Shown: positions 212 to 20,261 of the stretch, piece by piece
How positions within the stretch are numbered: the first letter of the stretch is position 1
Layout of the letters: the number at the start of each line of letters is the position of its first letter
DNA from: Pseudomonadota bacterium
GTDB lineage: Bacteria > Pseudomonadota > Gammaproteobacteria > Burkholderiales > Casimicrobiaceae
Direction of reading: 5' to 3'
Length of the DNA: 57,278 bases
NCBI GenBank assembly: GCA_018241785.1
Contig: JAFEDF010000254.1
Coordinates: forward strand, 1 to 57,278
Translations under genes and position numbers: made by a program
The notes under the pieces: model-generated
Database searches by the model: none
Told to the model about the DNA's origin: nothing
The model's input: the letters and a program-made list of their open reading frames with translations, nothing else

Positions 212-1431
212 GCGTCGACGCTGCGCCCGCCCGCATCCTCGTCGCCGACGACCAGGAGCTCAACCGCGACTTGCTCTCGCGCCGGCTGCGCGCCGACGGC
301 CACCGCGTCGACCTCGCCGAGGACGGCCCCCGCGCGCTCGCGATGCTCGAGGGCGCCCCGTACGATCTCGTGCTGCTCGACATCATGATGCCGGGCATGG
401 ACGGCTACGACGTGCTCGCGCGGATCAAGGCGAGCGAAGCACTGCGCCACCTTCCGGTCGTCATGGTCTCTGCGCTCGACGAGACCGAGAGCGTCGTGCG
501 CTGCCTCGAGCTCGGGGCCGACGACTACCTGACGAAGCCCTTCAACGCGGTAGTGCTCCGCGCGCGCGTCGGCGCCTCGCTCGCGCGCAAGTGGCTGCAC
601 GACCGCGAGCAGCTCTACGCGAGGAGCCTCGCCCGCGAGCTCGAGATCGGCCGCGAGATCCAGCAGGGCTTCCTGCCCCCGGCGTGCCCCGTCCTTCCGG
701 GCTGGCAGATCGCGGCGCGCTTCGAGCCGGCGCGAAGCGTCGCCGGCGATTTCTACGACGCCTACGTCCTTCCTGGCGGGCACGTCGCACTGGTCGTCGC
801 CGACGTCTGCGACAAGGGTGTCGGCGCCGCGTTGTACATGGCGCTGTTTCGCTCGCTCTTGCGCGCGCTCGCGGTCCAGGCAGCGCTGCAGCGGCGTCCC
901 GACGACGCCATCCTCGCGGAGGTCACCGCGCATACGAGCGACTACATCGCGACGGTCCACGATCGCGCCAACATGTTCGCGACGGCGTTCTTCGCGATCC
1001 TCGATCCGGCCGACGGCCGGATCCGCTACGTGAACGCCGGGCACGACCCGCCATTCCTCGCCGGCGCCGCTGGCGCGCCGCGGCGGCTCGGTGCGACCGG
1101 GCCGGCGCTCGGCCTCGTTGCGGGAGCGCACTACGCCGTCGGCACGGACACGATCGAACCTGGCGAGCTCCTGCTCGCCTATACCGACGGCGTGACCGAC
1201 GCGCGCACCGCCGACGGCAGCGGCTTCTCGGAGGAGCGCGTCGAGGCGATCCTGCGCGAGTCCGGGCCGGCGGCGGGCGCCGGCGAGTCTGCGGCAGCGG
1301 GCGGACGTGCGGGGCGGCTGCTCGAGCGGATCGCGGCAGCGGTCACCGCCTACGCGGGCAGCGGCGAGCGCTTCGACGACGCGACGATGCTCGCCGTCGT
1401 TCGCTCGAGCTGCGCCGTACCGGCATCGTGA
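208..1431 (+). CDS. Response regulator with RsbU/SpoIIE-type PP2C phosphatase output domain
   Basis: 407 residues, GTG start coupled to the upstream gene by a GTGA overlap. The N-terminal receiver domain (about residues 8-125) has the acidic pair D14-D15, phosphoacceptor D58 in LLDIMMPGMDG and the conserved K110 in LTKPF. After a helical linker (about 130-165) the C-terminal half (about 175-400) matches the SpoIIE/RsbU phosphatase family, with FEPARSVAGDFYD, a VVADVCDKGVGAALYM metal-site motif, NAGHDPP and a terminal RFDDATMLAV. Such proteins dephosphorylate anti-anti-sigma or similar partner proteins when the receiver is phosphorylated. No partner STAS or kinase gene lies downstream, so the target is elsewhere. 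The last 89 bp overlap the convergent MauG-like gene. Confidence 0.92.
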   Translation: MSVDAAPARILVADDQELNRDLLSRRLRADGHRVDLAEDGPRALAMLEGAPYDLVLLDIMMPGMDGYDVLARIKASEALRHLPVVMVSALDETESVVRCLELGADDYLTKPFNAVVLRARVGASLARKWLHDREQLYARSLARELEIGREIQQGFLPPACPVLPGWQIAARFEPARSVAGDFYDAYVLPGGHVALVVADVCDKGVGAALYMALFRSLLRALAVQAALQRRPDDAILAEVTAHTSDYIATVHDRANMFATAFFAILDPADGRIRYVNAGHDPPFLAGAAGAPRRLGATGPALGLVAGAHYAVGTDTIEPGELLLAYTDGVTDARTADGSGFSEERVEAILRESGPAAGAGESAAAGGRAGRLLERIAAAVTAYAGSGERFDDATMLAVVRSSCAVPAS

Positions 1432-3742
1432 CGATCGCGGGCATCGACTGCGGTCGCGGCCCGGCCAGGGCCGCCTGCCGCACGGGGGTGGCCGCGGCGG
1501 CGGCGGGCGCAGCCGGTCCCGCCGTGTGAAACGATGCCGCTTCCCGGTGGTCGAGCGGCACGAGCGGCGGCAGCTGCGGAGCCGCAACCACGAGCGGATG
1601 GTCCATGCTGAGGGACTCGAGAAACGCCACCAGGTCGTGCTTTTCCTGCTCGCCGAGGTGGAGCGGGTGCAGCAGCGGCGACCGGTTCGGCCCCATCCCG
1701 CCGCCGCGATCGAAGAAGTCGACCACCTCGCCGAGCGTGGCGAATCGGCCGTTGTGCATGTAGGGTGCCGTGTACTTGAGCTCGCGCAGGCCGGGCGTGC
1801 GGAACTTGCCGATGTCGGACGGATTGCCCGTCTGGTAGTACCGTCCGAGATCGACGTCGGCATCGAGCAGTTCCGGATCGGTCACGCCCTTGGCCCGCTG
1901 TGCAAAGCTGTGGGTCGCCTGATACAGGACGCTCGAGTCGAGGATCGGATTTTCGGGCAGGCCGACCGAGTGGTAGCGCTCGTCCGAGGCGAGAGGCCCG
2001 TTGTGGCAGCTCACGCATCCCGCCTTGCCGGCGAACAGGCGATAGCCGCGGAGCGCCGCGGGTGACAGCGCGCTTTCGTCCCCGTTCATGTAGCGGTCGA
2101 AGGGTACGTCGCGCGGATTGCTGACGATCGTGCGCTCGAAGCTCGCGATCGCTCGCCAGACATCCGCCGCGCGCGGCCACGGCGTGCCGAACGCCTCCCT
2201 GAAGCGTTTCACATACTCGGGGACGAAGCGCAACCGCATCTCCATCATCGCCGGGTCGGCATTGCCCTCGACAGGGCCCGTTCCCGCCGTCTCGGCCTGT
2301 GCTTCGAGCCCGTCGGCCGAGCCCTCCCAGAACGGGTGTCGGAAGTACGCCGCGTTGAGGACCGTGAGTGCGTTGCGGTAGTTCTGGGTGCCCGGATAGC
2401 CCCGCGAAATGGCGTTGCCGTCACCCCAGCCGAGTTGCGGGAAATGGCAGGACACGCACGGGGTGCTGCCGTTGCCGCTGATGCGCGGATCCCAGAACAG
2501 CATCCTGCCGAGTTCGACCCTGGACGCCGTCATGCGATCGTCGGCAGGCACCGGTACCGGCGGCAGCGGCTGCAGCGGAGGGGGATTGCGCGCGGCGGAG
2601 ATTTCGCCGTCCGCGGCTGCGCCGCCCGCAAGCTCCGGTGCGACCGCCCGCGGATCAAATGCGCGCGCCCGCATCTCCCATTGAATCGGTTCGTCGACGA
2701 CGACGCGATCGCCGCTGAGGCTGCCCAGAAACGCCAGCAGCGACTTCTTCTCCGACGCGGCCAGGTGGAGCGGCTCGAGCTCGCTGCCTGGCCCGCCTCC
2801 GCGGTCGTAGAAGTCCACGACCTGCGCAAGGCTCGCAAAGACGCCGTTGTGCATGTAAGGCGCGGTCCACTTCAGATCGAGCAGCGACGGCGTCAGGAAT
2901 CTGCCCCGATCCTCCGGATCGCCGGTGACTGCGTAGCGGCCGAGGTCGCTGCGCACGGTCATGACGTCGGGGACCTTGGCGAGCTTGAACCGTCTCAGCA
3001 TCGAGATGGCGCGCAGCGGATCAGCCAGGATCGTCGGATTCTCCGGAACCGCGAGACGATGGAACCGCTGGTCCGAGAGGAGCGCTCCCTGGTGGCAGCG
3101 CACGCATCCGGCCTTGCCGGTGAACAGTTGCAGCCCCTGCCGCGCAGCCGGGCTGAGCGCGGTCTCATCGCCGGCGAGAAAGCGTTCGAACGGGATGTTG
3201 CGCGAGCGAACGGTCTCGAGGAACGCTGCGAGGGCTGCATCGATTCCGCGTGGCGTGATCTCGGCGTCGGCACCGTAGACCTTTCTCCACAGCGCCGCAT
3301 ACTCCGGAACGAGTTTGAGCCGCTCGGCGACGAGCAGCGGGTCAGCGTGCATCATGTCGGGACGAACGATCATGTCGTGCACGGTGCCGGCCAGGTTCCG
3401 GCCGTCGCCGCCTCCGTCCCACATGAGCCGGGCGCGTTGCGCCACGTTGAGCAGGCTTGGTGCATTGCGGAAGTAATCGCTGTTCGTATAACCCTTCGAC
3501 AGCGCGGCATCGTCACCCCAGCCGCGCTGCGGATCGTGGCAGCGCGCACACGAGCGGCCCCAGTCGCTGGAAAGCCGGGTGTCGAAGTAAAGATGCCGAC
3601 CGAGGTCGGCCAGATCCGGGCTCACCGCGGCAGCGGGCGGCAGCGGGGCGAACGGTACGCCTCCACCGTACGCAGGCGTCGCGAGCACGGCTGCCAGTGC
3701 GAGCAGGGCGGCGATCGGGAGCCTGCCGGACGAGCGCGACAT
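1343..3742 (-). CDS. Tandem-fused MauG/CcpA-family dihaem cytochrome (two modules, four c-haems)
   Basis: 799 residues with a Sec signal peptide (about 1-26). Residues about 35-345 and 400-715 are two homologous copies of a MauG/bacterial cytochrome c peroxidase dihaem module, each with two CXXCH sites: C65-H69 (CARCH) and C213-H217 (CVRCH) in the first, C429-H433 (CVSCH) and C576-H580 (CVSCH) in the second. Each copy also carries the GRYxxTG and TAPYMHNG landmarks. Normal family members have one module of about 330-390 residues. MauG oxidises two tryptophans of the light-chain precursor to form TTQ; a mauA gene lies in the same operon, so this is the natural candidate for that role. The last ~70 residues are Ala/Arg-rich and the 3' end overlaps the convergent phosphatase gene by 89 bp. 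Final gene of the minus-strand operon. Confidence 0.9.
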   Translation of the reverse strand: MSRSSGRLPIAALLALAAVLATPAYGGGVPFAPLPPAAAVSPDLADLGRHLYFDTRLSSDWGRSCARCHDPQRGWGDDAALSKGYTNSDYFRNAPSLLNVAQRARLMWDGGGDGRNLAGTVHDMIVRPDMMHADPLLVAERLKLVPEYAALWRKVYGADAEITPRGIDAALAAFLETVRSRNIPFERFLAGDETALSPAARQGLQLFTGKAGCVRCHQGALLSDQRFHRLAVPENPTILADPLRAISMLRRFKLAKVPDVMTVRSDLGRYAVTGDPEDRGRFLTPSLLDLKWTAPYMHNGVFASLAQVVDFYDRGGGPGSELEPLHLAASEKKSLLAFLGSLSGDRVVVDEPIQWEMRARAFDPRAVAPELAGGAAADGEISAARNPPPLQPLPPVPVPADDRMTASRVELGRMLFWDPRISGNGSTPCVSCHFPQLGWGDGNAISRGYPGTQNYRNALTVLNAAYFRHPFWEGSADGLEAQAETAGTGPVEGNADPAMMEMRLRFVPEYVKRFREAFGTPWPRAADVWRAIASFERTIVSNPRDVPFDRYMNGDESALSPAALRGYRLFAGKAGCVSCHNGPLASDERYHSVGLPENPILDSSVLYQATHSFAQRAKGVTDPELLDADVDLGRYYQTGNPSDIGKFRTPGLRELKYTAPYMHNGRFATLGEVVDFFDRGGGMGPNRSPLLHPLHLGEQEKHDLVAFLESLSMDHPLVVAAPQLPPLVPLDHREAASFHTAGPAAPAAAAATPVRQAALAGPRPQSMPAIVTMPVRRSSSERRRASSRRRSARRCPRRR

Positions 3743-3787
3743 GGCGTCAGACCGGTGCGCGGGACGGTGGCGCCAGCAGGCTTCGCA

Positions 3788-4195
3788 TCACTTCACGGCC
3801 ATCGGCTGCGATCCGGGCAGCTTGAGCGGCGTTCCGGGCGGCAATTGCGGACACGCCTTGGCCCAGCTCAGGATCTCGTCGAGCAGTTCGCGATTCTGCG
3901 TGCGCGAGAGCGGCTTGCTGCGCTGCGAAGGCATGCGGATGAAGAATCGGCGCTTGTCGGGATCCTCTCTGAATTGCGCCGCGTATACACCCGAGACGTG
4001 GAGGTCGCCCGTCGTTTCCGGCCGGCCGGGGTGGCAGCCCATGCAGTTCAACGCGTAGACCTCCGGCGCCGCGACTTCCGGGGCCGCCGCGGCGCTCGAC
4101 GCGCAGCCCGCGGCGAGCGCGAGCCCAGTCAGCAGCGGGAGGATCACGCTTCCGGTGCGAGGGGTTCGAGCCATGCGATGGAGATTAGCGCGCAT
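3788..4195 (-). CDS. Small monohaem cytochrome c lipoprotein
   Basis: 135 residues. The N-terminus holds a hydrophobic segment ending in LALAAGC, a good lipobox, so the mature protein is probably lipid-anchored facing the periplasm. One haem site, CMGCH, follows in the sequence ALNCMGCHPGRPE; a downstream FFIRMP methionine could be the sixth ligand. An alternative start seven codons in (MARTPRTG) would give a more usual signal peptide. It sits between the YCF48-like gene and the tandem MauG gene in the same direction, so it may deliver electrons to or from the MauG-like protein. No closer family name recognised. Confidence 0.75.
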   Translation of the reverse strand: MRANLHRMARTPRTGSVILPLLTGLALAAGCASSAAAAPEVAAPEVYALNCMGCHPGRPETTGDLHVSGVYAAQFREDPDKRRFFIRMPSQRSKPLSRTQNRELLDEILSWAKACPQLPPGTPLKLPGSQPMAVK

Positions 4196-4244
4196 CAGCG
4201 CCGCGCAACCTTGACCGGGGCAAAGGTTTACCGACGATGCTCGT

Positions 4245-5225
4245 TCAGGGTCTCACGACGCCCGCCACCGAGAACACCTGGACGCTTCCATCCGGAACGA
4301 CGGCGAGCGCCGTCAAGTCGGTGCGATCGCTCCGGGACGTCGCGCTGAAGCTGCGTCCGGCGTCGCGGCTCTCGAGCTCGACCCCGTCGAGGCCGACCGC
4401 CATCACCCGGCTGCCCACGGCCACGATGCCGGTGATCGAGCTCCTGGTTCCGCTCGCCACGGCCTGCCAGCTCTGCCCGTCGTCCGTGCTGCGATACACG
4501 CTGCCGCGGAGCCCCGCGACGAGCAGCGTTCCATCGTGCAGAGCGCAGCCCGTCCAGAGCGACCCCTTGTATCCTGTGTTGACGTACTGCCAGCTCGCAC
4601 CGCGATCGGTCGACCGCAGCACCGTGCCGCGCTCGGCCGCGATGAACAGCGTGCCGCCTGGCGCCGCAAAGATGCTGAAGAGGTTGCGATCGGTCTGCCC
4701 GCCTCCCGGAGGCGCGGGGAGGGCCAGCTTGTTCCAATGCTGCCCGCCGTCGTCCGTCATCAGCAGCAACGACCACAGCCCGGCTGCGATACCGTGCTCG
4801 CCATCGAGAAAGTACACGGCAAAGAGCGGCTGGTCGACGCTGGTGTCGCTGCGCTGCAACGTCCATGTCTCGCCGCCATCGCGGGTGTGGATCACCACGC
4901 CCCACTGGCCGACCGCCCAGCCGTTGCGTGCGTCGGAAAACGAAACGCCGGTCAGGGTCGCACGCGTCGGCACCGAGCGGGCCTGGCGGTAGCGCTTGCC
5001 TTGATCGTCCGACAGCAGCACGACTCCGTGGTCGCCGACGGCGACGAGCCTGCCTCCCGCATTCGTCGCCGCCAGCATCATTTCGCTGGTTGCCCATGGC
5101 ACGTGCAGCGCGGGCTCCTCCTGCAGCGACGCCTGATGCGCGACGGCCGCCGGGTTGGCCGCCCCCGCCGCGGGACAGCACGCGCTCGCCCAGGCCACCA
5201 GTGCGGCGAGGGCCAATCGGGTCAT
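4245..5225 (-). CDS. YCF48/BNR-repeat beta-propeller protein, exported
   Basis: 326 residues from the ATG at 5223-5225; a longer frame upstream runs into the preceding transporter gene and is rejected. A signal peptide (about 1-25, MTRLALAALVAWASACCPAAGA) is followed by repeated blades with the Asp-box-like signature SxDxGxxW, for example TRDGGETWTLQ, TDDGGQHWNKL, STDRGASWQYV and STDDGQSWQAV. This is the photosystem II assembly factor YCF48/HCF136-like propeller fold, widespread in non-photosynthetic proteobacteria. It lies 20 bp after the RND transporter gene. Genes of this type are often found beside RND, DUF1302 and DUF1329 genes, as here; it is probably a periplasmic or surface scaffold for that module (inference). 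Confidence 0.85.
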   Translation of the reverse strand: MTRLALAALVAWASACCPAAGAANPAAVAHQASLQEEPALHVPWATSEMMLAATNAGGRLVAVGDHGVVLLSDDQGKRYRQARSVPTRATLTGVSFSDARNGWAVGQWGVVIHTRDGGETWTLQRSDTSVDQPLFAVYFLDGEHGIAAGLWSLLLMTDDGGQHWNKLALPAPPGGGQTDRNLFSIFAAPGGTLFIAAERGTVLRSTDRGASWQYVNTGYKGSLWTGCALHDGTLLVAGLRGSVYRSTDDGQSWQAVASGTRSSITGIVAVGSRVMAVGLDGVELESRDAGRSFSATSRSDRTDLTALAVVPDGSVQVFSVAGVVRP

Positions 5226-5245
5226 CGCGCTCACCGGGAGTCCGA

Positions 5246-7600
5246 TCAATGGTCGAGCATCGCGAGCACCCGCGGCGGCTTGCGGCGCGGAAAGAGCCGC
5301 TCGAGCCAAACGGCCAGCGCGGGCAGCGCGGTCATCGCCATCACGAGGTTCACCATGAACATGAATGCCAAGAGCTTGCCCATGTCCGCCTGGAACTTGA
5401 GCTCCGAGAACGACCACGTCACGACGCCGATGGCGAGCGTCACCGCGGTGAAGATCGTCGCCGTCCCGACTTCGAGGATCGCGTGCTCGAGTGCCTTGAC
5501 GATCGGCTGCCCCCTGGCGAGGTGGAGCTGCAGGCGGTTGTAGATGTAGAACGCATAGTCGACGCCGATGCCTACCGCGAGCACCATCACCGGCAGCGTC
5601 GCCACGGTAAGTCCGATGCGCAGCTCCTTCATCAGCCAGTAGCCGATGAAGGTCGCCACGGTCAGCGGCAGGCAGCAGGCGATCATTGCGCGGAGATCGC
5701 GGTAGGCGAGGAAGACGAGAATCAATATTGCGGCGTACACGTAGAGCATCATCGGCACCTCGCTCTGCGCAACGACGTCGTTGATCGCCGCCTGTACACC
5801 CGCGTTGCCCGAAGCGAGCCTCACCGTGACCCCCGGCTGCCGGTGGTCCGCCCGGAATTGCTTGATTGCCTCGATCACCGTATTGATCGTCGTCGCCTTG
5901 TGGTCGGTCAGGAACAGATGTGCGGCAACCATGCTGCAGTCCTTGCGCATGTACCCGCGGAGGCGTCCGACCTCGACCGACAGCCCTGCGTAGTTACCGG
6001 GATCGATCGGCACCACGTACATCTTCGGATGGCCCTCGTTGTATCCCTCGTTGTAGGTGCGCAGGAGCTCCGAGTACGAGCTCACCGACATGACGCCGGG
6101 CACATGGCGCATCCGGTCGACGAAGCGATCCTGGTAGAGGCCGATGCGGACGTTTTCGCAGGAATCGGGCGGCGCCTCGAACATGACCGTCAGCCAGTCG
6201 AGTCCGGTGTCGTAGTTGCTCGCGATGGCGACCGCGTCGCGGTTGAAGCGCGCATCCGGCCGCAGCTCGGGGGCGCCAGGCTCCAGGCTGCCGATGACGC
6301 GGTCGCGGCTCTGCCAGAGAGCGAGCCCGAAAATCACGGCGACGCCGGCCAGCACCGCGGCGGCCGTCCGCGGCTCGGCGACGCGTGCCAGCTTGCGCAG
6401 CCACTGTGCTCGGCGGTCCCGGATGACCATCGCGCGGGCCGCATAGGCGCGGGTGAAGTTCATGAACGACGCAGCCAGCGGCAGCATCACGAGGTTCGTC
6501 CCGATCTTGTAGGCGACGCCGATCGATGCGGTGACCGCGAGCTCCCTCACCATCGGGATCGGGATCAGGACGAGCGTCATGAACGACACGAAGGCCGTGA
6601 CGAGCGCCAGTACACCCGGCACCAGCAGCCCCGAGAAGCTCGCTCGCGCCGCCTGCTCGGTGCTGTGGCCGTGCGCGATCTCGCGCACGATGTAGTTGAT
6701 CTGCTGCACCCCGTGCGACACTCCGATCGCGAAGACCAGGAAGGGCACCAGCACGGCGAGCGGGTCGAGCCCGTAGCCGAGCAGCTTCAGCGTTCCGAAC
6801 TGCCACACCAGCGAAGTCAGCGAACAGACGATCGCGAGGAGCGCGAGCCGGATCGAATGGCAGTACCAGTAGACCGCCAGCAGCGTCAGCAGCAGGGCAA
6901 TGGCGCAGAACTCGAGAACTCCCTGCGCGCCTGCGGCGATGTCGCCGATCTGCTTGGCGAACCCGATGATCCGGATCTCGAAATCCTGATCCTCGAACTT
7001 GCGGATCTTCTGCTCGAGCGTTCGGTCGAAGCGCAGGTAGTCGATCCTGACCCCGCTGGCGTCGTACTCGTTGAGTTCCGCGGTGACCATCGCGCTCGTC
7101 TGATCGCGGCCGACGAGCGTGCCATCGAACCCGCCTTCATTGGTGGCGTGCTGGATGTTCGCGATGACCTCCGGGGTCAGCTTGTCGGTGGTCACCGTTC
7201 CCGGAATGAGGGGCTCTGCGCGGAAGCCGTCCTCGGTGATTTCGTTGACGAAGGTGTTCGGTGTCCACAGCGACTGGACGCTGAGGCGCGATACGTACGG
7301 AAGAAACGTCACCGCCTGCGTGACGTCATAGAGGCGCGTCAGCGCGTTCCTGTTCCAGATCGTGCCGTGGCGCGCCTTCACGACGACGATCAGGCGGTTC
7401 GCGCCCAGCACGTCGTCCCGGTATTTCATGAACGTCCGGATGTACTCGTTGCCCACCGGCATCTGCTTGTCGAAGCCGGCGTCCATCCTGAGCTGGAGCG
7501 CAAAGAAGCCCGTGACCACGGTAAAGGCCACGAAGAGCGCGAGTACCGCCTTCCTTCTGAGGAAGAGGAAGTCCTGAAGCTCCTGGATCCAGCCGTTCAT
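5246..7600 (-). CDS. RND superfamily (MMPL-type) transporter
   Basis: 784 residues with two homologous halves, each with one transmembrane helix, a large extracytoplasmic domain, then five clustered helices. First helix about 17-37; first helix cluster about 225-400; second half begins near the IFGLALWQSRDRVIG region; last cluster near the C-terminus (ATLPVMVLAVGIGVDYAFYIYNRL, FTAVTLAIGVVTWSFSELKFQADMG). The GVSHGVQQINYIVRE and GIGVDYAFYIYNR segments match the conserved helix-4 region of MMPL/SSD-type exporters. No membrane-fusion protein or TolC gene accompanies it; instead the neighbours are DUF1302, DUF1329 and YCF48-like genes. This grouping suggests movement of hydrophobic or lipid-like molecules across the envelope (inference). 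Confidence 0.9.
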   Translation of the reverse strand: MNGWIQELQDFLFLRRKAVLALFVAFTVVTGFFALQLRMDAGFDKQMPVGNEYIRTFMKYRDDVLGANRLIVVVKARHGTIWNRNALTRLYDVTQAVTFLPYVSRLSVQSLWTPNTFVNEITEDGFRAEPLIPGTVTTDKLTPEVIANIQHATNEGGFDGTLVGRDQTSAMVTAELNEYDASGVRIDYLRFDRTLEQKIRKFEDQDFEIRIIGFAKQIGDIAAGAQGVLEFCAIALLLTLLAVYWYCHSIRLALLAIVCSLTSLVWQFGTLKLLGYGLDPLAVLVPFLVFAIGVSHGVQQINYIVREIAHGHSTEQAARASFSGLLVPGVLALVTAFVSFMTLVLIPIPMVRELAVTASIGVAYKIGTNLVMLPLAASFMNFTRAYAARAMVIRDRRAQWLRKLARVAEPRTAAAVLAGVAVIFGLALWQSRDRVIGSLEPGAPELRPDARFNRDAVAIASNYDTGLDWLTVMFEAPPDSCENVRIGLYQDRFVDRMRHVPGVMSVSSYSELLRTYNEGYNEGHPKMYVVPIDPGNYAGLSVEVGRLRGYMRKDCSMVAAHLFLTDHKATTINTVIEAIKQFRADHRQPGVTVRLASGNAGVQAAINDVVAQSEVPMMLYVYAAILILVFLAYRDLRAMIACCLPLTVATFIGYWLMKELRIGLTVATLPVMVLAVGIGVDYAFYIYNRLQLHLARGQPIVKALEHAILEVGTATIFTAVTLAIGVVTWSFSELKFQADMGKLLAFMFMVNLVMAMTALPALAVWLERLFPRRKPPRVLAMLDH

Positions 7601-7675
7601 GCGGCCGGATGGGCAGCCACCACGGGCGGCGCAGCGTGCGGCGCACCGATGCTACCGCGGCGCGCCGCAGGCTCC

Positions 7676-7690
7676 CATGCGCCGCGCATG
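7676..7690. other. Perfect inverted repeat between DUF1302 and RND genes
   Basis: CATGCGC-C-GCGCATG is a perfect 7-bp inverted repeat with a 1-nt centre, directly after the DUF1302 stop codon within a 91-bp gap. It is too tight to fold into a normal RNA hairpin without opening the centre, and has no T-tract, so it may be a protein-binding palindrome, an mRNA processing site, or chance. A GC-rich near-palindrome (CCGCGGCGCGCCGC) lies just to its left. Confidence 0.3.
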
Positions 7691-7691
7691 G

Positions 7692-9398: not shown

Positions 9399-9425
9399 CG
9401 GATCCCCCTCTCTCGAGCGGCGTTC

Positions 9426-10793
9426 TCAGCGTGCGCTGATCGCGCGCAGGTTGTCGGCGGTGTAGAAGTCCTGCTTGAAGCGCGGCCCGTCCGGTACCGT
9501 CACCCACCGCATGTCCTTGCTCCCGCCCACAGGATCCATGTCGAACACGTAGCGTCCCTCGGTCAGGTTGTACTGCGCGAAGGCCGTCACGTCACAGGTG
9601 CCGGTTTCGTACGCCGGGATCAGGTAGCCTTCGCGATACTTGAACAGCTTGCCCTGGGCGTCGTAGTCCTCTCCGGCCATGACGTTCCAGCTATCCTCGT
9701 CGAGGTAGTAGTAGCGCTTGGGTGCGACGTGGCGCATGCCTTTCTTCACGGTCGCCTCGAGCACCCAGACACGATGGAGCTCGTAGTGCCGGGCGGCCGG
9801 GTTGATCGAGTCGGGCTGCGCGACATCCTCGAGCTTCGTCTTGTAGTCGTAGACGCCGAACGAGTTGTAGGCGACGTACATCTCCTTCTTGCCCACGAGC
9901 TTCCAGTCGAACCGGTCGATCGTGCCGTTGAACACGAGCGGCTCGTCGAGCGTGTACTGATCCTCCATCCCGATCTGCGGCGAGTCATACGAGTAGGACG
10001 GCATGCGCCGGACGCGGCGCTGGCCGGGGAAGTAGTAATTCGTCTCGGCACCCGGCTGGTTGATGTAGACGGTGATCACCAGCGCCTGGCCCGCCAGCGC
10101 GGGCGGCGACGTATACGCGAAGTAGCCGTCGTACTCGATCGGCGGGAGCGTGCTGAGCTTGGTCGATCCCTTGAGTCCCCACGGGAAATAGAACGTCAAG
10201 TCCTGCGCCGCCTTGATCCATTCCGTGCCGCCCTTGCGGGGCGAGACCGTGGTGACGATGTGCGGGAAGTCGATCCCCACTCCGCGGTAGCGCATCTTCA
10301 TGTTCCACATCGCCTGGGCGCCGTCGGCGGGGAACGGAAACGGGAAGCCCGGAACGTAGGCCTCCTTCAGGCTCCAGCCGTTGGCGTCCATCGTCGCGAA
10401 ACCGACGTTCTTCTTCGTGTTCTCCGCGACGAAATCGGGTATGCCGCAATCGCGATGGCTGGGATAGACGTCCATCCGATAGTTCTTGATCTGCTTGATC
10501 GTCGCGATCTGCCCAGGCGAGAGCCTGTCGGCGTACTTGTCGACGTTCGACGCGTCGATCGAGAACAACGGCTTGTCGGCGTGGTACTTCCAGGAGTCGA
10601 AGCGCAGCTTGCCGTAGGTCCAGTCGCCGGGGGGCGCCGTGCCCTCCCACGCCGGGATCGTCCCGTCCTTGTTGCCGGCGCGCTCGCCGCCCGACGGCGT
10701 GAGATCCTGGCCGAGGCGCGAGACGTCCTGGGCGACGGCGATCCCCGATACGCTCGCGAGAGCTGCGAGAAAGACGAGTCCGTACTTGTTCAT
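9426..10793 (-). CDS. DUF1329 family periplasmic protein (LolB-like fold expected)
   Basis: 455 residues with a signal peptide (about 1-21, cleavage near GIAVAQ). The mature start DVSRLGQDLTPSGGERAGNKDGTIPAWEG and a later PPALAGQALV-type region are the hallmarks of DUF1329. As I recall the family is related to LolA/LolB-type lipoprotein carriers, with a half-barrel suited to binding acyl chains or other greasy ligands. Upstream of DUF1302 in the same transcript, so the pair would form a periplasm-to-outer-membrane path together with the RND protein. Ligand unknown. Confidence 0.88.
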   Translation of the reverse strand: MNKYGLVFLAALASVSGIAVAQDVSRLGQDLTPSGGERAGNKDGTIPAWEGTAPPGDWTYGKLRFDSWKYHADKPLFSIDASNVDKYADRLSPGQIATIKQIKNYRMDVYPSHRDCGIPDFVAENTKKNVGFATMDANGWSLKEAYVPGFPFPFPADGAQAMWNMKMRYRGVGIDFPHIVTTVSPRKGGTEWIKAAQDLTFYFPWGLKGSTKLSTLPPIEYDGYFAYTSPPALAGQALVITVYINQPGAETNYYFPGQRRVRRMPSYSYDSPQIGMEDQYTLDEPLVFNGTIDRFDWKLVGKKEMYVAYNSFGVYDYKTKLEDVAQPDSINPAARHYELHRVWVLEATVKKGMRHVAPKRYYYLDEDSWNVMAGEDYDAQGKLFKYREGYLIPAYETGTCDVTAFAQYNLTEGRYVFDMDPVGGSKDMRWVTVPDGPRFKQDFYTADNLRAISAR

Positions 10794-10843
10794 GGCGATC
10801 CTTTGCGATCAAAAACGAAGCGGTACCCGGAATCCGACCCCGT

Positions 10844-10881
10844 GCGTCCGCGCCGATTGCCGGATCGGCACGGCCGGACGC
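10844..10881. other. Stem-loop between ALDH and DUF1329 genes
   Basis: Outer arms GCGTCCG (10844-10850) and CGGACGC (10875-10881) enclose inner arms GCCGAT (10852-10857) and ATCGGC (10864-10869). The transcript read leftwards would form a GC-rich hairpin in the 101-bp gap between the aldehyde dehydrogenase and DUF1329 genes. The nearest T-run in that direction (five T, at 10811-10815) is about 30 nt away, so this is not a canonical terminator; it could lower or stabilise expression of the downstream transport genes. Confidence 0.35.
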
Positions 10882-10894
10882 GAAACTCCGTTCG

Positions 10895-12379
10895 TCACAG
10901 CACGATGGTGATCACTTTCTCCTCGGTCGCGGCCTCGATCCCGCTCCAGCCGAGCTCGCGTCCGATGCCGCTCGTCTTGAAGCCGCCCCACGGCAGCCGC
11001 GGATCGATCGGCGCCCAGCCGTTGACCGAGACCGCGCCGGCTCGGATGCGTGCGGCGAACTGGTGGGCCCGGCTGACGTCGCGGGTCCAGATGGTCGCGG
11101 CAAGTCCGTAGCGCGTCGCGTTCGCGAGGCCGATCGCCTCGTCGGGATCGTCGAACGCCATGACCGCGCCGACCGGGCCGAAGATCTCTTCCTGCGCGAT
11201 GCGCATGTCGTTGCTGGCATTTGCGAAGATCGTCGGCCGGAAGAAGTAGCCGGGCTCGTCGATCCGGTTCCCGCCGGCAACGATCCGCGCGCCTTCACCC
11301 AGTCCGGTGCGCACGTAGCCCGACACGCGCTCGAGCTGCTTCAGGCTGACGAGCGGACCCATGTTGGTGCCGGGGTCGAGCGGGTCGCCGAGCTTGATGG
11401 CGTTCGCTGCGCCCGCCAGCGCTTCCAGCATCCGGTCGTAGCGCGAGCGCTGAACGAAGATGCGCGTTCCGGCCGCGCAGACCTGACCCTGGTTGAAGAA
11501 CAATCCGAGTGCGACCCCGCCCACCGCGGTGTCGACGTCGGCGTCGTCGAGGATGATCTGCGGCGACTTTCCGCCGAGCTCCAGTGCGACACGCTTGAAC
11601 CCGTCCGCCGCCGCGCGCATCACCTCGCGCCCGACCTCGGGGCTGCCGGTGAAGCTGATCTTGTCGACGCCGGGATGGCGCGTCAGCGCGGCGCCCGCGA
11701 CCTCGCCGAGCCCCGGTACGACGTTCACCACCCCCGGTGGAAAGTTCGCTTCCTCGATCAGCCTCGCAAGGTAGAGCGTGGTCAGCGGCGCCTCTTCGGA
11801 CGGCTTGATGACGACCGTGCATCCGGCGGCCAGGGCCGGTGCGAGCTTCCAGCACGCGATCATCAGGGGCGTGTTCCACGGCGTGATTGCGCCGACGACG
11901 CCGACGGGCTCGCGTACGGTGTACGAGTGGGTCGGGCGCCCGAAGTAACCGGGAGTCGGGATCGTGCGGCCCTCGATCTTGTCGGCCCAGCCCGCGAAAT
12001 AGCGCACCGTATCGATCGCCATCGGGAGGTCGAGGATCGTCGGTTCCTGGAGCGGGCGTCCCAGGTTGAGCGTCTCCAGCATCGCGAGCTGCTCGCGATC
12101 GCGGTCGATCAACTCGGCGAGGCGGTAGAGCAGGCGGCCGCGCTCGACGCCGTTCATTCGCGACCACTCGCCGTGCTCGAACTGGTTGCGCGCCGCGCGA
12201 ACGGCGGCGTCGATGTCCTCCGGCTTGGCTGCGGCGACCTTTGCAAGCAGGGTTGCCAATGCCGGATTGATGACGTCGAAGGTCCCGCGGTCCACCGCGT
12301 CGACCCACCGTCCCCCGATGTACAGCCGCGCATTCGCGTCGACTGCTGCCTGGACGCGAGAAAGATCAATGGCTCCCAT
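10895..12379 (-). CDS. NAD(P)-dependent aldehyde dehydrogenase
   Basis: 494 residues, the usual length for the family. The cofactor-binding region has PWNTP (about 167-171) and the FTGSPEVG turn (243-250); catalytic general base E267 is in ELGGKSP and nucleophile C301 in FNQGQVCAAGTR. The C-terminal EEIFGPVGAV motif is also present. Placed directly after the amine dehydrogenase and cytochrome genes, it would oxidise the aldehyde released by oxidative deamination to the carboxylic acid. Aldehyde dehydrogenases of this group include phenylacetaldehyde and betaine-aldehyde enzymes; specificity cannot be read from the sequence. Confidence 0.92.
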   Translation of the reverse strand: MGAIDLSRVQAAVDANARLYIGGRWVDAVDRGTFDVINPALATLLAKVAAAKPEDIDAAVRAARNQFEHGEWSRMNGVERGRLLYRLAELIDRDREQLAMLETLNLGRPLQEPTILDLPMAIDTVRYFAGWADKIEGRTIPTPGYFGRPTHSYTVREPVGVVGAITPWNTPLMIACWKLAPALAAGCTVVIKPSEEAPLTTLYLARLIEEANFPPGVVNVVPGLGEVAGAALTRHPGVDKISFTGSPEVGREVMRAAADGFKRVALELGGKSPQIILDDADVDTAVGGVALGLFFNQGQVCAAGTRIFVQRSRYDRMLEALAGAANAIKLGDPLDPGTNMGPLVSLKQLERVSGYVRTGLGEGARIVAGGNRIDEPGYFFRPTIFANASNDMRIAQEEIFGPVGAVMAFDDPDEAIGLANATRYGLAATIWTRDVSRAHQFAARIRAGAVSVNGWAPIDPRLPWGGFKTSGIGRELGWSGIEAATEEKVITIVL

Positions 12380-12438
12380 GTTCCCGTGACCCCCTTCCGA
12401 TTTCGATGCCTTGAGCGCGGCTGCCCGGCGCCATCGGA

Positions 12439-12915
12439 TCAGCGATGCTTGCCGGCCCGGGCGAGCTCGTCGATCAATGCCTGCCGCGCCGCGTGCAGCT
12501 CGATGGCCGACACCTTTTCCTGCCTTGCGCCGTGCACCTCCCCGGCGGTGAACGGCTTGAACTGCGCCGGAAGACTCTTCGTGTTGAACTGGGTGAGCAC
12601 GTAGTTGAGCGCGTCGGCCGCCTGCTGATCGCTGAGCGGCGCGTAGAGCGCCATCGTCGCGTCGTAGGCGACCCCTGCGACGGTGATCGGTCCGGTCAGG
12701 CCGTAGCTCACCACCCGGACGAGATACGCGCGGCCGCCGTCCGCAGCGACGTAATAGCCGAGCGTGTCGGTCAGCGGCGGCACGAACCCCGGGGAGCCGG
12801 TGGCGCTCTCCAGATGGCAGACGGCACAGCGCTGCACGAAGATGCTTCCGTCGGCTGCGTTCGCGCAGATGGCGATTGCGAGCGCGGCGAGCCCGACGAT
12901 GCAGCGCCCGATCAT
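12439..12915 (-). CDS. Periplasmic monohaem cytochrome c, probable electron acceptor of the amine dehydrogenase
   Basis: 158 residues from the ATG at 12913-12915, which overlaps the mauA stop by four bases (ATGA); a longer in-frame extension is only the antisense of mauA. Signal peptide about 1-20 (ending CANAAD), one haem site CAVCH in FVQRCAVCHLES, and a plausible methionine ligand in YDATMALYAPLSDQ, followed by the ADALNYVLTQFN helix typical of class I cytochromes c. In classical mau clusters mauC, after mauA, encodes the blue-copper protein amicyanin; here a cytochrome occupies that slot. It is the obvious candidate to take electrons from TTQ. Confidence 0.85.
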   Translation of the reverse strand: MIGRCIVGLAALAIAICANAADGSIFVQRCAVCHLESATGSPGFVPPLTDTLGYYVAADGGRAYLVRVVSYGLTGPITVAGVAYDATMALYAPLSDQQAADALNYVLTQFNTKSLPAQFKPFTAGEVHGARQEKVSAIELHAARQALIDELARAGKHR

Positions 12916-13445
12916 CGCTTGGCTGCGCCGAGGATCACCGCCGTCGAGCAGTGGTACGACATGCTCGAGGTGCCGAGACACCAGTCCATGTCGTTGTTCG
13001 ACTGCGGCCGGTACAGCGGCTTGTCTTCCTCGTTGCGGTTGCAGAAGCACTGGCCGCAGCTCCCCTTTGCGCAGCAGTCGTTGTACGAGATGACGTAGTC
13101 GATGCCGTCGGCCGGATTCCTGCACGTACCGACCCAGGTGAGCGGAGAGGGCTCCGCACCCGGCGGGCACGTATGCGCGCTGCCGCCGCAGCACGCGCAG
13201 AGCCAGCCGTCGATTCCGCAGTAACGCCAGTAGCTGCACGTCGTCGGATCGCCGGGATCGGCCTGCGAGCCTGCCGTCTTCGCCGCAGCCGCCCACGCCT
13301 TGCCGGTCACGCGATCGATCGGCAGCAGCGGCCACAGCGCCCCCCCGACCAGCACGCGCCCGAGACGGGCGAGCGCGCTTCGACGCGACGTCACCTGCGC
13401 GACTCGGCGCACCGAGTGCTCAGACCACCGATCGAGCCAATTCAT
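12912..13445 (-). CDS. mauA: TTQ amine dehydrogenase light (beta) chain
   Basis: 177 residues. The long leader has a twin-arginine motif (TSRRSALARLG, about 19-29) and a hydrophobic stretch, as in known MauA/AauA precursors exported folded. The mature part, from about residue 60, has the MauA cysteine pattern CSYWRYC, LCACC, TCPPG, GTCRNP, YNDCC, CNRNE, DWC and YHC. The two tryptophans that form tryptophan tryptophylquinone correspond to W104 (PLTWVGTC) and W155 (DMDWCLG); both are present, as are acidic residues D79 and D123. Fourteen cysteines are visible in the mature part. Whether the enzyme acts on methylamine or an aralkylamine is not decidable from this chain alone; the nearby aldehyde dehydrogenase favours a non-C1 amine. 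Confidence 0.95.
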   Translation of the reverse strand: MNWLDRWSEHSVRRVAQVTSRRSALARLGRVLVGGALWPLLPIDRVTGKAWAAAAKTAGSQADPGDPTTCSYWRYCGIDGWLCACCGGSAHTCPPGAEPSPLTWVGTCRNPADGIDYVISYNDCCAKGSCGQCFCNRNEEDKPLYRPQSNNDMDWCLGTSSMSYHCSTAVILGAAKR

Positions 13446-13461
13446 CGAATCTCCCCGGCCG

Positions 13462-14058
13462 CTACGCGCGTTCGGCGCGCAGGTAGTCCTGCAGCGAGCC
13501 GACCCCGTGCTCGCTCGCCACGAACAGGCTCTCGAAATGCTCGCGTGTGTTGACGAGACCCTTGGCGCGAATCACGCCGTCTGCGTCGATCAGCACCGCG
13601 TACGGGAGCTTGCCGACCTGATAGGCCATTCCGAGCTCGCGCGACAGGAGATACGGGAACTGCTCCAGCTTCTCCCGCCGCACGAACGCGCGCTGCTCGG
13701 CCTCGTCGCCGTCGCTGGCGAGAACCAGGGCGGCCGCCGGTTCGCTGCGCAGAATCGATCTCACGATCGGAAGGAGCTTCTTGCACATCGGGCAGCTCGG
13801 CGACACGAACAGGAGCACCGTGTTCTTGCGGTCTCCCCGCAGGCCTCCGAGCTTCACCGCACGTCCGAGGAGGTCGCGCATCTCGAACAGCGGCGCCGCG
13901 GCGCCGACGCCGGGGCCGCGGTCGATGACCAGGGCGCCGGCGGGGGCGATGCGCTCGTAGAGGATTCCGAGCTGCCGCGCCAATGCGACGGCGATCACCC
14001 CGAGTGCGATCACCGCGACCCAGAGGACCGCGTTCGATACCAGCAAGGCTTCAGTCAT
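13462..14058 (-). CDS. mauD: Amine dehydrogenase accessory protein MauD (thioredoxin-like)
   Basis: 198 residues from the ATG at 14056-14058, which overlaps the mauE stop by four bases. One N-terminal membrane helix (about 5-27) anchors a periplasmic thioredoxin/redoxin fold with active-site motif C-P-M-C in FVSPSCPMCKKLLP and a cis-proline segment KLPYAVLI. MauD and MauE are needed to form the many disulphides of the light chain before TTQ can be made (known from Paracoccus). Position between mauE and mauA matches the canonical order B-E-D-A. Confidence 0.93.
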   Translation of the reverse strand: MTEALLVSNAVLWVAVIALGVIAVALARQLGILYERIAPAGALVIDRGPGVGAAAPLFEMRDLLGRAVKLGGLRGDRKNTVLLFVSPSCPMCKKLLPIVRSILRSEPAAALVLASDGDEAEQRAFVRREKLEQFPYLLSRELGMAYQVGKLPYAVLIDADGVIRAKGLVNTREHFESLFVASEHGVGSLQDYLRAERA

Positions 14059-14600
14059 GCGCCCCTCCTCATTTTGGCGAGCCCGGGTACCGCGGCGATG
14101 AGTCGATTCACGGCGGTGAGCACGAGCAGCGAGGCGACGGTCGCGAAACCAATCGTCACGTAGTCGAGCCAGACCACCGGACGCGGCGAAACGGGCAACC
14201 ACAGCGCAGCCGCCATGGCGGCCACGGCGACGTTGCGCACCACGATCCAGCCACTCAGCCCGGCACCGGAAGCCTCGGCAGGTCCCCAGCATCCGCATTC
14301 GAGGTCACGCCGTCCCCGCGCCAGGTTGATCGTCACGGCGGCCGAGAAGACGAGCAGCAGCGTGACCATGCCGCCTGCAGCGAGCGTGCGCGCGGGCGCC
14401 CACAGCACACCGAGCGCGCAGCCGAACTCGGCCAGCGTCACCACGATGGCGACGGGTGCCGCGGCCCACGGCGCGAGAAGGTCGTATTCGCGGACCGCGC
14501 GTCCGAACCATGCCGGGTGGCGCGCTTTCTGCACGGCGCCGGCAAGAAAGATCAGCGCGAGGTCCGCCTCGAGAAGACCGCCGACGACGGGGTCGAGCAT
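14055..14600 (-). CDS. mauE: Amine dehydrogenase accessory membrane protein MauE (DoxX-like)
   Basis: 181 residues, start at the ATG 14598-14600, 11 bp after the heavy-chain stop. At least four hydrophobic helices are visible, in the regions about 5-25, 42-65, 68-92 and 108-150. Features typical of the MauE family include the QKARHPAWFGRAVREY segment after the first helix and the cytoplasm/periplasm-facing ECGCWGP cysteine pair, which could pass electrons to MauD for disulphide formation. A longer in-frame extension is antisense or overlaps the heavy chain and is rejected. Confidence 0.9.
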   Translation of the reverse strand: MLDPVVGGLLEADLALIFLAGAVQKARHPAWFGRAVREYDLLAPWAAAPVAIVVTLAEFGCALGVLWAPARTLAAGGMVTLLLVFSAAVTINLARGRRDLECGCWGPAEASGAGLSGWIVVRNVAVAAMAAALWLPVSPRPVVWLDYVTIGFATVASLLVLTAVNRLIAAVPGLAKMRRGA

Positions 14601-14611
14601 TCCGGAAATCC

Positions 14612-15772
14612 TCAGGGGTTGGCGAGCACGACGCTCGTTTGCAGCAGGCCCTTCGCCGATCCACGGTAGGTGCCGGTGCGCGCGTCGTAGACCTGCACCG
14701 AGCTGTCTGCGCCCAGCCCGTACAGCAGCGGCTGATCGTCGAGGCTGGTCAGGACGCCGGTCACCGGGGTCTTCATGCGGATGCGCTGAATCCGCCTGTG
14801 GGTCGCGAGGTCGTAGCTCCACACTTCGGGACCCGGATCCTTGTGCGTTCCATTGCCCCCTCGGTGCATGACGACGTAGAGCCGGTTGAGCGCCCGGTTC
14901 ACCGCGGACTCCTGCCAGCCGCCGGGTCGCCACCCCGCGCGCCGGTCGGCGTCGCTCAGCAGTGACCAGGGCTCATCGAAGGCCGGAGCGACACCCGACA
15001 GGTCGAGGCCATGTACGAGGCCGAGAAACGAGATGAAGAAATAGTGCGCACCGAGCCGGGCCGGGGTCACGTTCAGCGATTCCTTCTCCGGATCGAAGAA
15101 GCGGCGATCGCTCACCTTCTGGCCAGTGCTCGCGCCTGTGTCGTCCAGACGCACCGTCAGCAGATGTCCGTCGGCGCACAGCATCGAGAATCCGCGGCTG
15201 TCCTGCGCAGGGTAGGCAAGCGAGCAGCCCGGCGTCGCGATCTCGCCGACGAACTTGCGGCTCTTCAGGTCGACGACGCTCACCGACGTTGCCGGCGTGA
15301 AGTTGAATACGAGCAGAAACCTGCCGTCGGGGGTCGTGATCGTCCCGTACGGAACGGTGAGCGAGAGAAAGCGCTTTGGCGGGATCGGGACTTCCGCGAT
15401 CGGCTTCAGCTCGTCGGTGCTCACGATGGTCACCACATCGGTGCGATCGCCGCGCGTTCCCCGCGAATAGAACGTATCCGTTACGTAGAGCTCCTTCTGG
15501 TCGGGCGACGGGGCAAAGCCGACCGTCATGCCGGTGCTGATCATGCCGAGCATGCGTCTCGTGTCGCCGTCGATGAGGACGATCTTGCCCTCGGTCATCT
15601 CGCCGAAGACGATATCGACGGCGTAGACCCAATGCGGATGGGGCGGGCTGGGGAGAACCTCGGCCTTGAGGTGATCGGCCGGCAGCACGGCCCCCGCTGG
15701 CGCGGCCGCGATCCACAGTGCGAACGAGGCCGCCGCTGCGCAGGTCCGCAACGAGAGCGAAGGAGTACTCAA
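14612..15772 (-). CDS. mauB: TTQ amine dehydrogenase heavy (alpha) chain
   Basis: 386 residues, close to the usual size. Signal peptide about 1-28 (cleavage near APAGAVLP), then a seven-bladed propeller sequence with the family landmarks HPHWVYAVD, GKIVLIDGDTRRMLGMISTG, TDTFYSRGTRGDRTDVV and, near the C-terminus, RLYVVMHRGGNGTHKDPGPEVWSYD, the conserved region of MADH/aralkylamine dehydrogenase heavy chains. It forms the alpha2-beta2 periplasmic enzyme with mauA. First gene of the minus-strand operon and directly downstream of the predicted sigma-54 promoter. The symbol follows the mau scheme; aauB would apply if the substrate is an aralkylamine. Confidence 0.93.
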   Translation of the reverse strand: MSTPSLSLRTCAAAASFALWIAAAPAGAVLPADHLKAEVLPSPPHPHWVYAVDIVFGEMTEGKIVLIDGDTRRMLGMISTGMTVGFAPSPDQKELYVTDTFYSRGTRGDRTDVVTIVSTDELKPIAEVPIPPKRFLSLTVPYGTITTPDGRFLLVFNFTPATSVSVVDLKSRKFVGEIATPGCSLAYPAQDSRGFSMLCADGHLLTVRLDDTGASTGQKVSDRRFFDPEKESLNVTPARLGAHYFFISFLGLVHGLDLSGVAPAFDEPWSLLSDADRRAGWRPGGWQESAVNRALNRLYVVMHRGGNGTHKDPGPEVWSYDLATHRRIQRIRMKTPVTGVLTSLDDQPLLYGLGADSSVQVYDARTGTYRGSAKGLLQTSVVLANP

Positions 15773-15930
15773 GCCGATGTTCCTCCCGCCTTGATGAAAA
15801 TCAAGCCATCGGAGGAAAGGCCGTCGCGCGTCTTGATCCGGCCGCGCGGACAGCGCACAGTCTTCGTCTTCCTGAACGGCTCGTCGGGCATGCGGATACT
15901 GGTGGACGTGGCTGCGACCCGCGCTTCAAT

Positions 15931-15947
15931 CGCAAGCACCATGCCAC
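15931..15947 (-). promoter_or_regulatory. Sigma-54 (-24/-12) promoter of the TTQ amine dehydrogenase operon
   Basis: On the minus strand the sequence is TGGCAT-GGTGC-TTGC, matching the RpoN consensus TGGCAC-N5-TTGC with the essential GG and GC dinucleotides ten bases apart. It faces the heavy-chain gene and lies opposite a sigma-54 activator gene. Transcription should start near 15920. Confidence 0.75.
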
Positions 15948-16043
15948 GCGAAATCGCGGCGGCCGCGGTCGCGCGGATCACTGCGACGCGCGCTCGCATG
16001 CGCGGCGGCTCGCGGCGCGGGAGTGGCGCGGGAGTCTTGGAAC

Positions 16044-16061
16044 GAGACAGTGGCGTGTCTC
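16044..16061. promoter_or_regulatory. Inverted repeat, probable upstream activator site
   Basis: GAGACA-N6-TGTCTC is a perfect 6-bp inverted repeat centred about 107 bp upstream of the -24/-12 element, the normal distance for a sigma-54 activator site. It also covers the -35 area of the activator's own weak promoter (-10 TACAAT at 16069-16074), which would allow autoregulation. Confidence 0.6.
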
Positions 16062-16104
16062 AGAACGATACAATCCGCGATCCCCGGCAACCGGAGGGGC
16101 GCCG

Positions 16105-19186: not shown

Positions 19187-19224
19187 GGCGTCGGTCCCAT
19201 GCGCGTTGGCACAGACTCCCCCGA

Positions 19225-20250: not shown

Positions 20251-20254
20251 GGAA

Positions 20255-20261
20255 TCCTCCT
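20255..20261 (-). promoter_or_regulatory. Strong ribosome binding site of the di-iron gene
   Basis: On the minus strand AGGAGGA sits four bases before the ATG at 20250 and decides the start against a long upstream in-frame extension of low-complexity, arginine-rich sequence. Confidence 0.7.

Follow-up and report, generated by a model that had tools for sequence, protein, structure and literature searches.

The closest described counterpart of the gene set analyzed here is AmeABCD of Castellaniella defragrans, which comprises a DUF1302 protein, a DUF1329 protein, a YCF48-like (COG4447) protein and an HAE3 RND permease and is encoded within a catabolic island (PMC6394551). AmeABCD was assigned an export function; its deletion reduces monoterpene tolerance and increases Nile Red accumulation (PMC6394551). 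The same four families form COG1033-PF07044-DUF1302-COG4447 operons regulated by AphR, AphS and AphT in Betaproteobacteria, and they have been proposed to help cells withstand toxic aromatic compounds (PMC6449761). The AphR regulon listed for Burkholderia sp. 383 includes, besides the four families, aminotransferases and an aldehyde dehydrogenase; AphR belongs to the XylR/DmpR group (PMC6449761). We analyzed contig JAFEDF010000254.1 of a Casimicrobiaceae bacterium (57,278 bases, 69.6% GC; hereafter the window), part of a 3.49 Mb assembly in 262 contigs, in which such a four-component module shares an operon with a predicted tryptophan tryptophylquinone (TTQ) amine dehydrogenase. The new finding is that modules of this kind split into two subfamilies with different gene orders, one of which is amine-associated. 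A search of the open-access literature, mainly of titles and passages, in part among the top-ranked matches of longer lists and with subscription journals mostly outside its reach, found no link of this module to amine dehydrogenases.

An AmeABCD-type module in a mau operon

The operon consists of twelve genes, all on the minus strand, that run from 15772 down to 1343 according to domain and gene calls. Intergenic spacing ranges from -4 to 101 bp, 101 bp being the widest gap (computed by hand from gene coordinates). The first-pass annotation had described a twelve-gene minus-strand operon with short gaps, and the Pfam matches and gene coordinates bear this out. Its extent of 1343..16104 holds at the 3' end and fails at the 5' end, where the heavy chain gene begins at a TTG codon near 15772 and 16104 is the start of the divergent regulator. 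Eleven terminator-like matches were recorded, and all six on the minus strand fall within genes; a scan of the operon gaps on the operon strand gave no terminator-like site. Whole-genome search detects a single MauA gene and a single DUF1329 gene, both in the operon.

All four AmeABCD-type components are encoded side by side (minus strand throughout). The AmeB counterpart is a LolA-like DUF1329 protein (9426..10793; PF07044, E = 1.7e-123), the AmeA counterpart is a DUF1302 protein predicted to form an outer-membrane barrel (7692..9398; PF06980, E = 1.9e-128), the AmeD counterpart is an HAE3-like RND/MMPL permease (5246..7600; MMPL, E = 2.9e-20) and the AmeC counterpart is a YCF48-like propeller (4245..5225, with the start at 5225 or 5249; PF14870, E = 7.4e-23). 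The best NCBIfam match of the permease is the HAE3 model TIGR00921 (E = 2.5e-43), with 148 bits against a cut-off of 351.9. An AF2 model of the DUF1302 protein is porin-like (pTM 0.78) and leaves the direction of transport unsettled. Like AmeABCD, the window module lies inside a catabolic gene set. The two differ in gene order, which is DUF1302-DUF1329-YCF48-RND for AmeABCD (from gene names and accession order) and DUF1329-DUF1302-RND-YCF48 in the window, and in partner pathway, which is monoterpenes for AmeABCD and amines here. The AphR/AphS/AphT operons share the four families with the window module; they belong to phenol/toluene regulons with a proposed stress role, and the accessible passages of PMC6449761 do not mention an amine dehydrogenase, unlike the window operon.

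The pairing of the module with mau genes was followed in two sets of loci. The first is 80 named MauA loci, the best 80 of 570 confirmed in a profile scan of genome contigs. The second is a sample of 399 genomes from the order of the window (the order sample), 24 of which match MauA, 22 strongly; the weak matches in G194 and G208 stand outside the 22. Seven of the 80 named loci have a module no more than 10 kb from MauA, namely L002, L003, L013, L036 (Trinickia), L043 and L056 (Paraburkholderia) and L051 (P. oxyphila). In the order sample, there are 30 strong MauA places besides the window, and five have the module (G388, G083, G111, G363 and G058). The pairing therefore occurs in 12 other loci, plus plasmid p1 of Cupriavidus pinatubonensis HN-2, where the module is about 5 kb from the mau cluster, plus one locus of another family in the class (L236), where it immediately follows mauBEDA and a gene for a cytochrome c. 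A neighborhood conserved in related genomes, as the first-pass annotation had anticipated, is thus confirmed by the mauA-DUF1329/DUF1302 proximity search. The module is located downstream of, upstream of or divergent from the mau genes in different loci. Full-length DUF1329 is carried by seven of the 22 strong-MauA genomes, and six of these seven have a copy within 10 kb of MauA, compared with about 0.1 co-localized genomes expected by chance (calculated by hand from copy numbers and genome sizes). The genome of L056 lies outside the scope of the DUF1329 genome searches and of those for the tandem MauG-like protein described below.

Several paired clusters contain additional genes. Upstream of the mau and module cluster of G111 are a phenol/toluene-type hydroxylase (PF02332), a small protein and a reductase (L127, 1614-4658). 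The G401 cluster also encodes a HAD-like protein, an amino-acid permease and a class III aminotransferase according to Pfam (L142, 5568-9052), and G083 has proteins that resemble these by their sequence starts together with a UPF0261 protein (L125, 2229-5478).

Two module subfamilies and their companions

The window DUF1329 protein finds 47 copies in 38 of the 399 order-sample genomes, and the scores fall into two groups, with 14 copies at 353 bits or more (subfamily 1) and 33 at 278 bits or less (subfamily 2). The order DUF1329-DUF1302-RND-YCF48 is present in 12 of the 14 subfamily-1 copies; L187 has the first three genes up to the end of its contig, and the genes of L186 are in a permuted order. 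The AmeABCD order is present in 31 of the 33 subfamily-2 copies, two of them cut short. At L206 and L219, the search detected the first two genes and no RND or YCF48 gene in the stretch, and these two loci and the cut L200 and L210 are kept among the 33. A tree of 70 DUF1329 proteins, which leaves out L036 (cut) and L211 (under the score limit), separates the two subfamilies.

The subfamilies differ in their neighbors. A TTQ light chain (PF02975), a copper amine oxidase (PF01179) or a quinohemoprotein amine dehydrogenase (QHNDH) alpha subunit (PF09098) is encoded within 10 kb of eight of the 14 subfamily-1 copies and of none of the 33 subfamily-2 copies (Fisher p = 9.5e-6). Counted by genus, the difference is 6/12 versus 0/16 (p = 0.0025); both tallies are manual counts, and the Fisher tests do not account for relatedness. 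The TTQ light chain accompanies six copies (window, G058, G111, G363, G083 and G388), the copper amine oxidase accompanies G178 and is the sole PF01179 match in the 38 genomes, and the QHNDH alpha subunit accompanies G317, which is from the genus of the window. Addition of the flavin amine oxidase family PF01593 changes the tally to 8/14 versus 2/33 (p = 3.2e-4). The G166 copy of subfamily 1 lies by an ethanolamine ammonia-lyase and an amino-acid permease, and the G133 copy lies by a class III aminotransferase.

Three further sources extend this comparison. A biased set of 11 additional subfamily-1 copies comes from MauA-positive named genomes, and four of them (L150, L151, L154 and L156) lie next to genes for PF01593 proteins, the N-termini of which resemble those of exported proteins by eye; L159 is flanked by an aminotransferase, an aldehyde dehydrogenase and a permease. 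Six plasmid module records among 39 matches include one with mau genes, one with an amine-oxidase-like gene (local profile), one with an APC permease and alanine dehydrogenase, two with nothing evident and one that is unannotated. A sample of 369 genomes from the class has 55 DUF1329 places besides the window, and 20 were examined, namely both subfamily-1 places and 18 of the 53 others. G632 has mau genes beside its subfamily-1 module and G511 has nothing evident, and none of the 18 subfamily-2 loci examined shows a TTQ, copper or QHNDH enzyme by local profiles. In Trinickia (L181/L150, G402), two subfamily-1 modules are about 10 kb apart; one adjoins the mau genes, and the second adjoins genes for a flavin amine oxidase and an aldehyde dehydrogenase. 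These results identify a module subfamily that tracks amine oxidation across unrelated enzymes. The specialized pairing with a TTQ amine dehydrogenase proposed in the first-pass annotation stands as a pairing and is too narrow as a description, for the module is also found beside copper, QHNDH and flavin enzymes.

Trees of the partners are not congruent. The window enzyme is sister to that of L013 in a MauB-D-A tree, whereas the window and L013 permeases fall in different deep clades of the RND tree. Two very long rows in the latter, L030 and L037, are false inclusions that are not module RND proteins and were not used. On the DUF1329 tree (short search), the TTQ label requires 10 changes, and the starred branches force 10, compared with a shuffled mean of 13.1; the label is only mildly clustered, and a change can stand for a gain or for a loss. 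The TTQ-linked module of L013 and the QHNDH-linked module of G317 are sisters on this tree. Module and enzyme thus appear to have been combined more than once, or modules to have been exchanged, and either history would speak for selection on the pairing.

The amine dehydrogenase, its partners and its control region

The five genes at the promoter end of the operon encode the predicted enzyme and its maturation and electron partners. These are the heavy chain (mauB/aauB, TTG start; 14612..15772; PF06433, E = 3.9e-53), mauE (14055..14600; PF07291, E = 3.7e-19), the thioredoxin-like mauD (13462..14058; TIGR02661 equivalog, 222.6 bits, above the cut-off of 188.6), the TTQ light chain (mauA/aauA; 12912..13445; PF02975, E = 3.7e-50) and a 158-residue monoheme cytochrome c with one CXXCH motif (12439..12915). 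A PF06433 heavy chain and a PF02975 light chain are encoded together, as in TTQ amine dehydrogenases. Among solved structures, the heavy chain is closest to aromatic amine dehydrogenase (AADH; 2h3x_A, 193 bits), with methylamine dehydrogenase (MADH) reaching 165 bits, and the mature light chain scores 151 bits with AADH and at most 114 with MADH. With its leader, the light chain has a leader-bearing MADH precursor as its top match (156 versus 151 bits for AADH). The light chain also scores 167 bits with the MADH equivalog TIGR02659, under its cut-off of 196.85. Trp104 and Trp155, which we take to be the TTQ-forming positions, align with Trp residues of 3c75_L and are invariant in 25 aligned sequences. 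The enzyme is predicted to be a TTQ amine dehydrogenase of the aromatic (AADH) type, both chains being nearer AADH than MADH. The cytochrome c is its likely electron acceptor. In 73 of the 80 named loci and 22 of the 30 order-sample loci, MauA is followed within 1.5 kb by a cytochrome that matches the profile of this 158-residue protein or of the small heme protein described below.

The operon shares MauE, MauD and the nearest structural matches of both chains with AADH (aau) of Alcaligenes faecalis. It differs in having the transport module, the aldehyde dehydrogenase, the tandem MauG-like protein and the predicted sigma-54 control, which the aau cluster is not known to include. The MADH mau cluster of Paracoccus is alike in its TTQ-type enzyme, MauE, MauD and a MauG-superfamily protein. 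It differs in that no cupredoxin is found by Pfam among the twelve genes of the operon and in that the operon light chain and MauG halves score below the MADH and MauG equivalog cut-offs.

An aldehyde dehydrogenase gene (10895..12379; PF00171, E = 1.3e-176) lies between the cytochrome and the module. The protein has no signal peptide by eye and is StyD-like; it misses the cut-off of the phenylacetaldehyde dehydrogenase StyD model NF045736 by 0.4 (799.6 versus 800 bits), and its next-best NCBIfam match is another StyD model (562 bits). Strong, adjacent pairs of the paaA/paaC family (PF05138) are encoded in the window genome and G400, and G399 has two strong matches on separate contigs. Two strong PF05138 matches occur in seven of the 12 genomes with mau and module, including that of the window and its two nearest relatives; none above cut-off was found in G083, G058, G111 and G363, and G401 has one weak match. 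Homogentisate dioxygenase is encoded in G401 and in the window genome. The hydrophobic primary amine that the first-pass annotation proposed is supported, as an aralkylamine, by the AADH-type subunits, the StyD-like dehydrogenase and the paaA/paaC-family pair. Because of this dehydrogenase and the uneven distribution of PF05138 and homogentisate dioxygenase, the substrate in the window is likely phenylethylamine-like and may differ among the relatives of the operon.

The last two genes encode a 135-residue monoheme protein with one CXXCH motif and no Pfam match (3788..4195) and a tandem MauG/CCP-like protein with four CXXCH motifs (1343..3742; PF03150, CCP_MauG, E = 5.5e-77). The label of heme lipoprotein originally attached to the former is doubtful because the protein lacks a strict lipobox by eye. 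The tandem MauG assignment survives as a tandem CCP_MauG-family protein; identity as a true MauG was rejected, since the whole protein (395 bits) and its halves (187 and 214 bits) are under the 443.85-bit cut-off of the MauG equivalog TIGR03791. MauG and BthA have a six-coordinate heme ligated by Tyr and His (PMC6405878). In our alignment of P0121-P0127, the N-terminal half retains Tyr and the C-terminal half has Phe at the putative distal axial ligand position. The small cytochrome and the two halves are encoded by three genes of G083 (L144), by two genes of the window and by a single gene for a five-heme protein in P0122-P0125 and L146, a fusion series that links the small cytochrome with the tandem enzyme as a predicted partner. 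The tandem, or its two halves as neighbors, is at or near the operon in five of the 12 genomes with mau and module (window, G400, G399, G401 and G083), being split over contigs in G399 and some 6 kb beyond YCF48 in G401. The best matches in G058, G111, G363, G388, G402, G403 and G404 are weak and away from the operon, and a scan of 110 MauA loci found MauG-like neighbors, besides the window, only at L002 and L003. Tandem homologs are widespread, with records from Elusimicrobiota and Planctomycetota, for example, and the tandem is therefore not a TTQ marker. The separate small cytochrome and two MauG-like genes of G083 are followed by a molybdopterin/Rieske_3 arsenite-oxidase-like large subunit (L144, 3507-9167), and the fused five-heme gene of G400 occupies 5870-8338 of L146.

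Upstream of the operon and divergent from it is a 656-residue sigma-54-dependent activator (16105..18075, plus strand) with GAF, weak PAS, AAA+ and Fis helix-turn-helix domains (Sigma54_activat, E = 8.6e-64; GAF; HTH_8). The activator is kept beside the operon in L002 and L003 (82% identity) and L013 (57%), and a partial match adjoins L077, a mau locus without the module. The intergenic region holds a promoter-like -24/-12 site, TGGCATGGTGCTTGCG (15931..15946, minus strand; pattern match), upstream of the heavy chain and a candidate activator-binding repeat, TGTATCGTTCTGAGACAC (16055..16072, minus strand), a like repeat being present at this offset in both L002 and L003. Counterpart promoter-like sites are TGGCACAGCGCTTGCA in L002 and TGGCACGCGTGTTGCA in L013, the latter out of register with the other loci in the promoter alignment. 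A stricter pattern, composed after these sites had been seen, matches all four intergenic regions with a divergent regulator and 0 to 3 of 2000 shuffles. Two of the four sites are perfect TGGCACN5TTGCA, and none of the five mau and module loci lacking a divergent regulator in the examined stretch has a match. A chance match was set aside as the origin of the window site on the recurrence of this post hoc pattern in four of four homologous promoters. The operon is predicted to be sigma-54-controlled from the -24/-12 site and the activator alongside. The idea that enzyme and transporter are under one sigma-54 switch thus gains support, as they appear to form one transcription unit with a predicted promoter, terminator-free gaps and a site at all four regulator loci.

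Other genes of the window surround the operon. A response regulator-SpoIIE phosphatase fusion (208-1431, plus strand) adjoins its 3' end. Beyond the activator are a 2Fe-2S/FAD/NAD reductase gene (18125-19186, minus strand) and, preceding it, a gene for a 468-residue protein (19225-20631, minus strand) whose ferritin-like and AurF matches are all sub-threshold and which is perhaps a di-iron oxygenase partnered by the reductase; this pair (18125-20631) was not found in the examined stretches of L002, L003 and L013. Two FAD-linked oxidase genes and a GlcF-like gene, glycolate oxidase-like by eye, occupy 22020-26445 (plus strand). The stretch 40679-47663 (plus strand) holds a sugar-acid set that includes genes for a solute-binding protein, a mannitol dehydrogenase and a glucuronate isomerase.

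Proposed function and alternative explanations

In the mechanism we propose, the sigma-54 activator would sense the amine or a derived signal and turn on one long transcript, as suggested by the common strand, the gaps and the promoter site. By homology, the heavy and light chains would act in the periplasm, where they would oxidize a primary aralkylamine, for example phenylethylamine, and pass electrons to the adjacently encoded cytochrome c. The aldehyde would enter the cytoplasm, where the StyD-like dehydrogenase would yield phenylacetate or an analog for the paa-family genes, which are present in the genome. Maturation or redox balancing of the enzyme is the likely task of the small heme protein and the tandem MauG-like protein. 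Periplasmic amine oxidation with any cofactor would set free a reactive hydrophobic aldehyde in the envelope, and the proton-driven RND permease, LolA-like carrier and porin-like outer barrel would prevent build-up of the compound in membranes. Neighbors of the subfamily include TTQ, copper, QHNDH and flavin oxidizers, presumably because this release of aldehyde is independent of the cofactor. The amine-associated HAE3-type module thus likely relieves amine or aldehyde stress in an aralkylamine operon, a role whose direction and substrate we infer. The more specific reading, that the operon combines a predicted aromatic-type TTQ amine dehydrogenase with an amine-associated module that exports a hydrophobic amine or its aldehyde, has in our estimate an even chance of being right. 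The wider proposal, that the subfamily is dedicated to periplasmic amine oxidation and was recruited repeatedly to TTQ, QHNDH, copper or flavin oxidizers to clear toxic amine or aldehyde, is held more tentatively, a little short of even. Some observations weigh against these readings. Among 16 further MauA genomes from named loci that lack the module, 12 have no DUF1329 match and four have DUF1329 elsewhere. Four subfamily-1 copies (G007, G132, G290 and G037) have no recognized amine-related neighbor; gene calls are poor on L185 and L190, where the absence of an amine gene rests mainly on family searches. A loose sigma-54 pattern finds 13 sites across the window against 15.9 expected, no excess over chance.

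The first-pass annotation had assigned the module to uptake. In this reading, a hydrophobic amine would cross the outer membrane by way of the DUF1302 barrel and DUF1329 carrier and so reach the enzyme in the periplasm. The DUF1302 model does match substrate-specific porins of the OccK/OpdK group, DUF1329 and DUF1302 genes lie within a Delftia phenanthrene cluster (PMC3110197), and a finding quoted in PMC13101534 is that growth of Delftia on phenanthrene was impaired by the loss of a DUF1329 gene. An ameB insertion cut growth on limonene (PMC6394551), and poor growth is also consistent with lost uptake. An inner-membrane RND permease would be unnecessary, however, for reaching a periplasmic enzyme, the top Foldseek rank of the DUF1302 model is AlgE, an exporter, and loss of AmeABCD increased Nile Red accumulation and lowered tolerance (PMC6394551). 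Uptake is thus not supported and was demoted to a rival, because AmeABCD was assigned export and a toxic-aromatics role was proposed for the same families (PMC6449761); we regard it as unlikely.

The same AphR/AphS/AphT regulons (PMC6449761) also suit a general envelope service, in which the module repairs lipid or solvent stress, rides with any pathway for a membrane-active compound and appears linked to amines as a by-product of sampling. The HAE3 family includes hopanoid transporters, and subfamily-1 copies without an evident amine gene occur. A sampling by-product fits poorly with an amine link that is limited to one subfamily of the same order sample (8/14 versus 0/33) and spans unrelated enzymes, and this explanation is rather doubtful. 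Incidental placement of the module beside mau genes by a mobile island, with no functional link, would account for the modules on plasmids, one of them with a mau cluster, and for the disagreement of the RND and mau trees over the window and L013. The same order and strand recur with differing module lineages, however, so that the link appears re-formed; the single DUF1329 gene of the window genome is in this operon; and six co-localized genomes among seven far exceed the 0.1 expected by chance. Such a coincidence is very improbable.

DUF1302 and DUF1329 are domains of unknown function, and AmeABCD is the subject of the one transporter study found for the four-part system. The subfamily split gives the amine-linked half a specific, testable substrate class. 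Export in response to periplasmic amine oxidation is a proposed answer to a neglected problem, the fate of the reactive aldehyde released by periplasmic amine oxidizers. If this is true, the module would be a cofactor-blind partner of extracytoplasmic amine catabolism.

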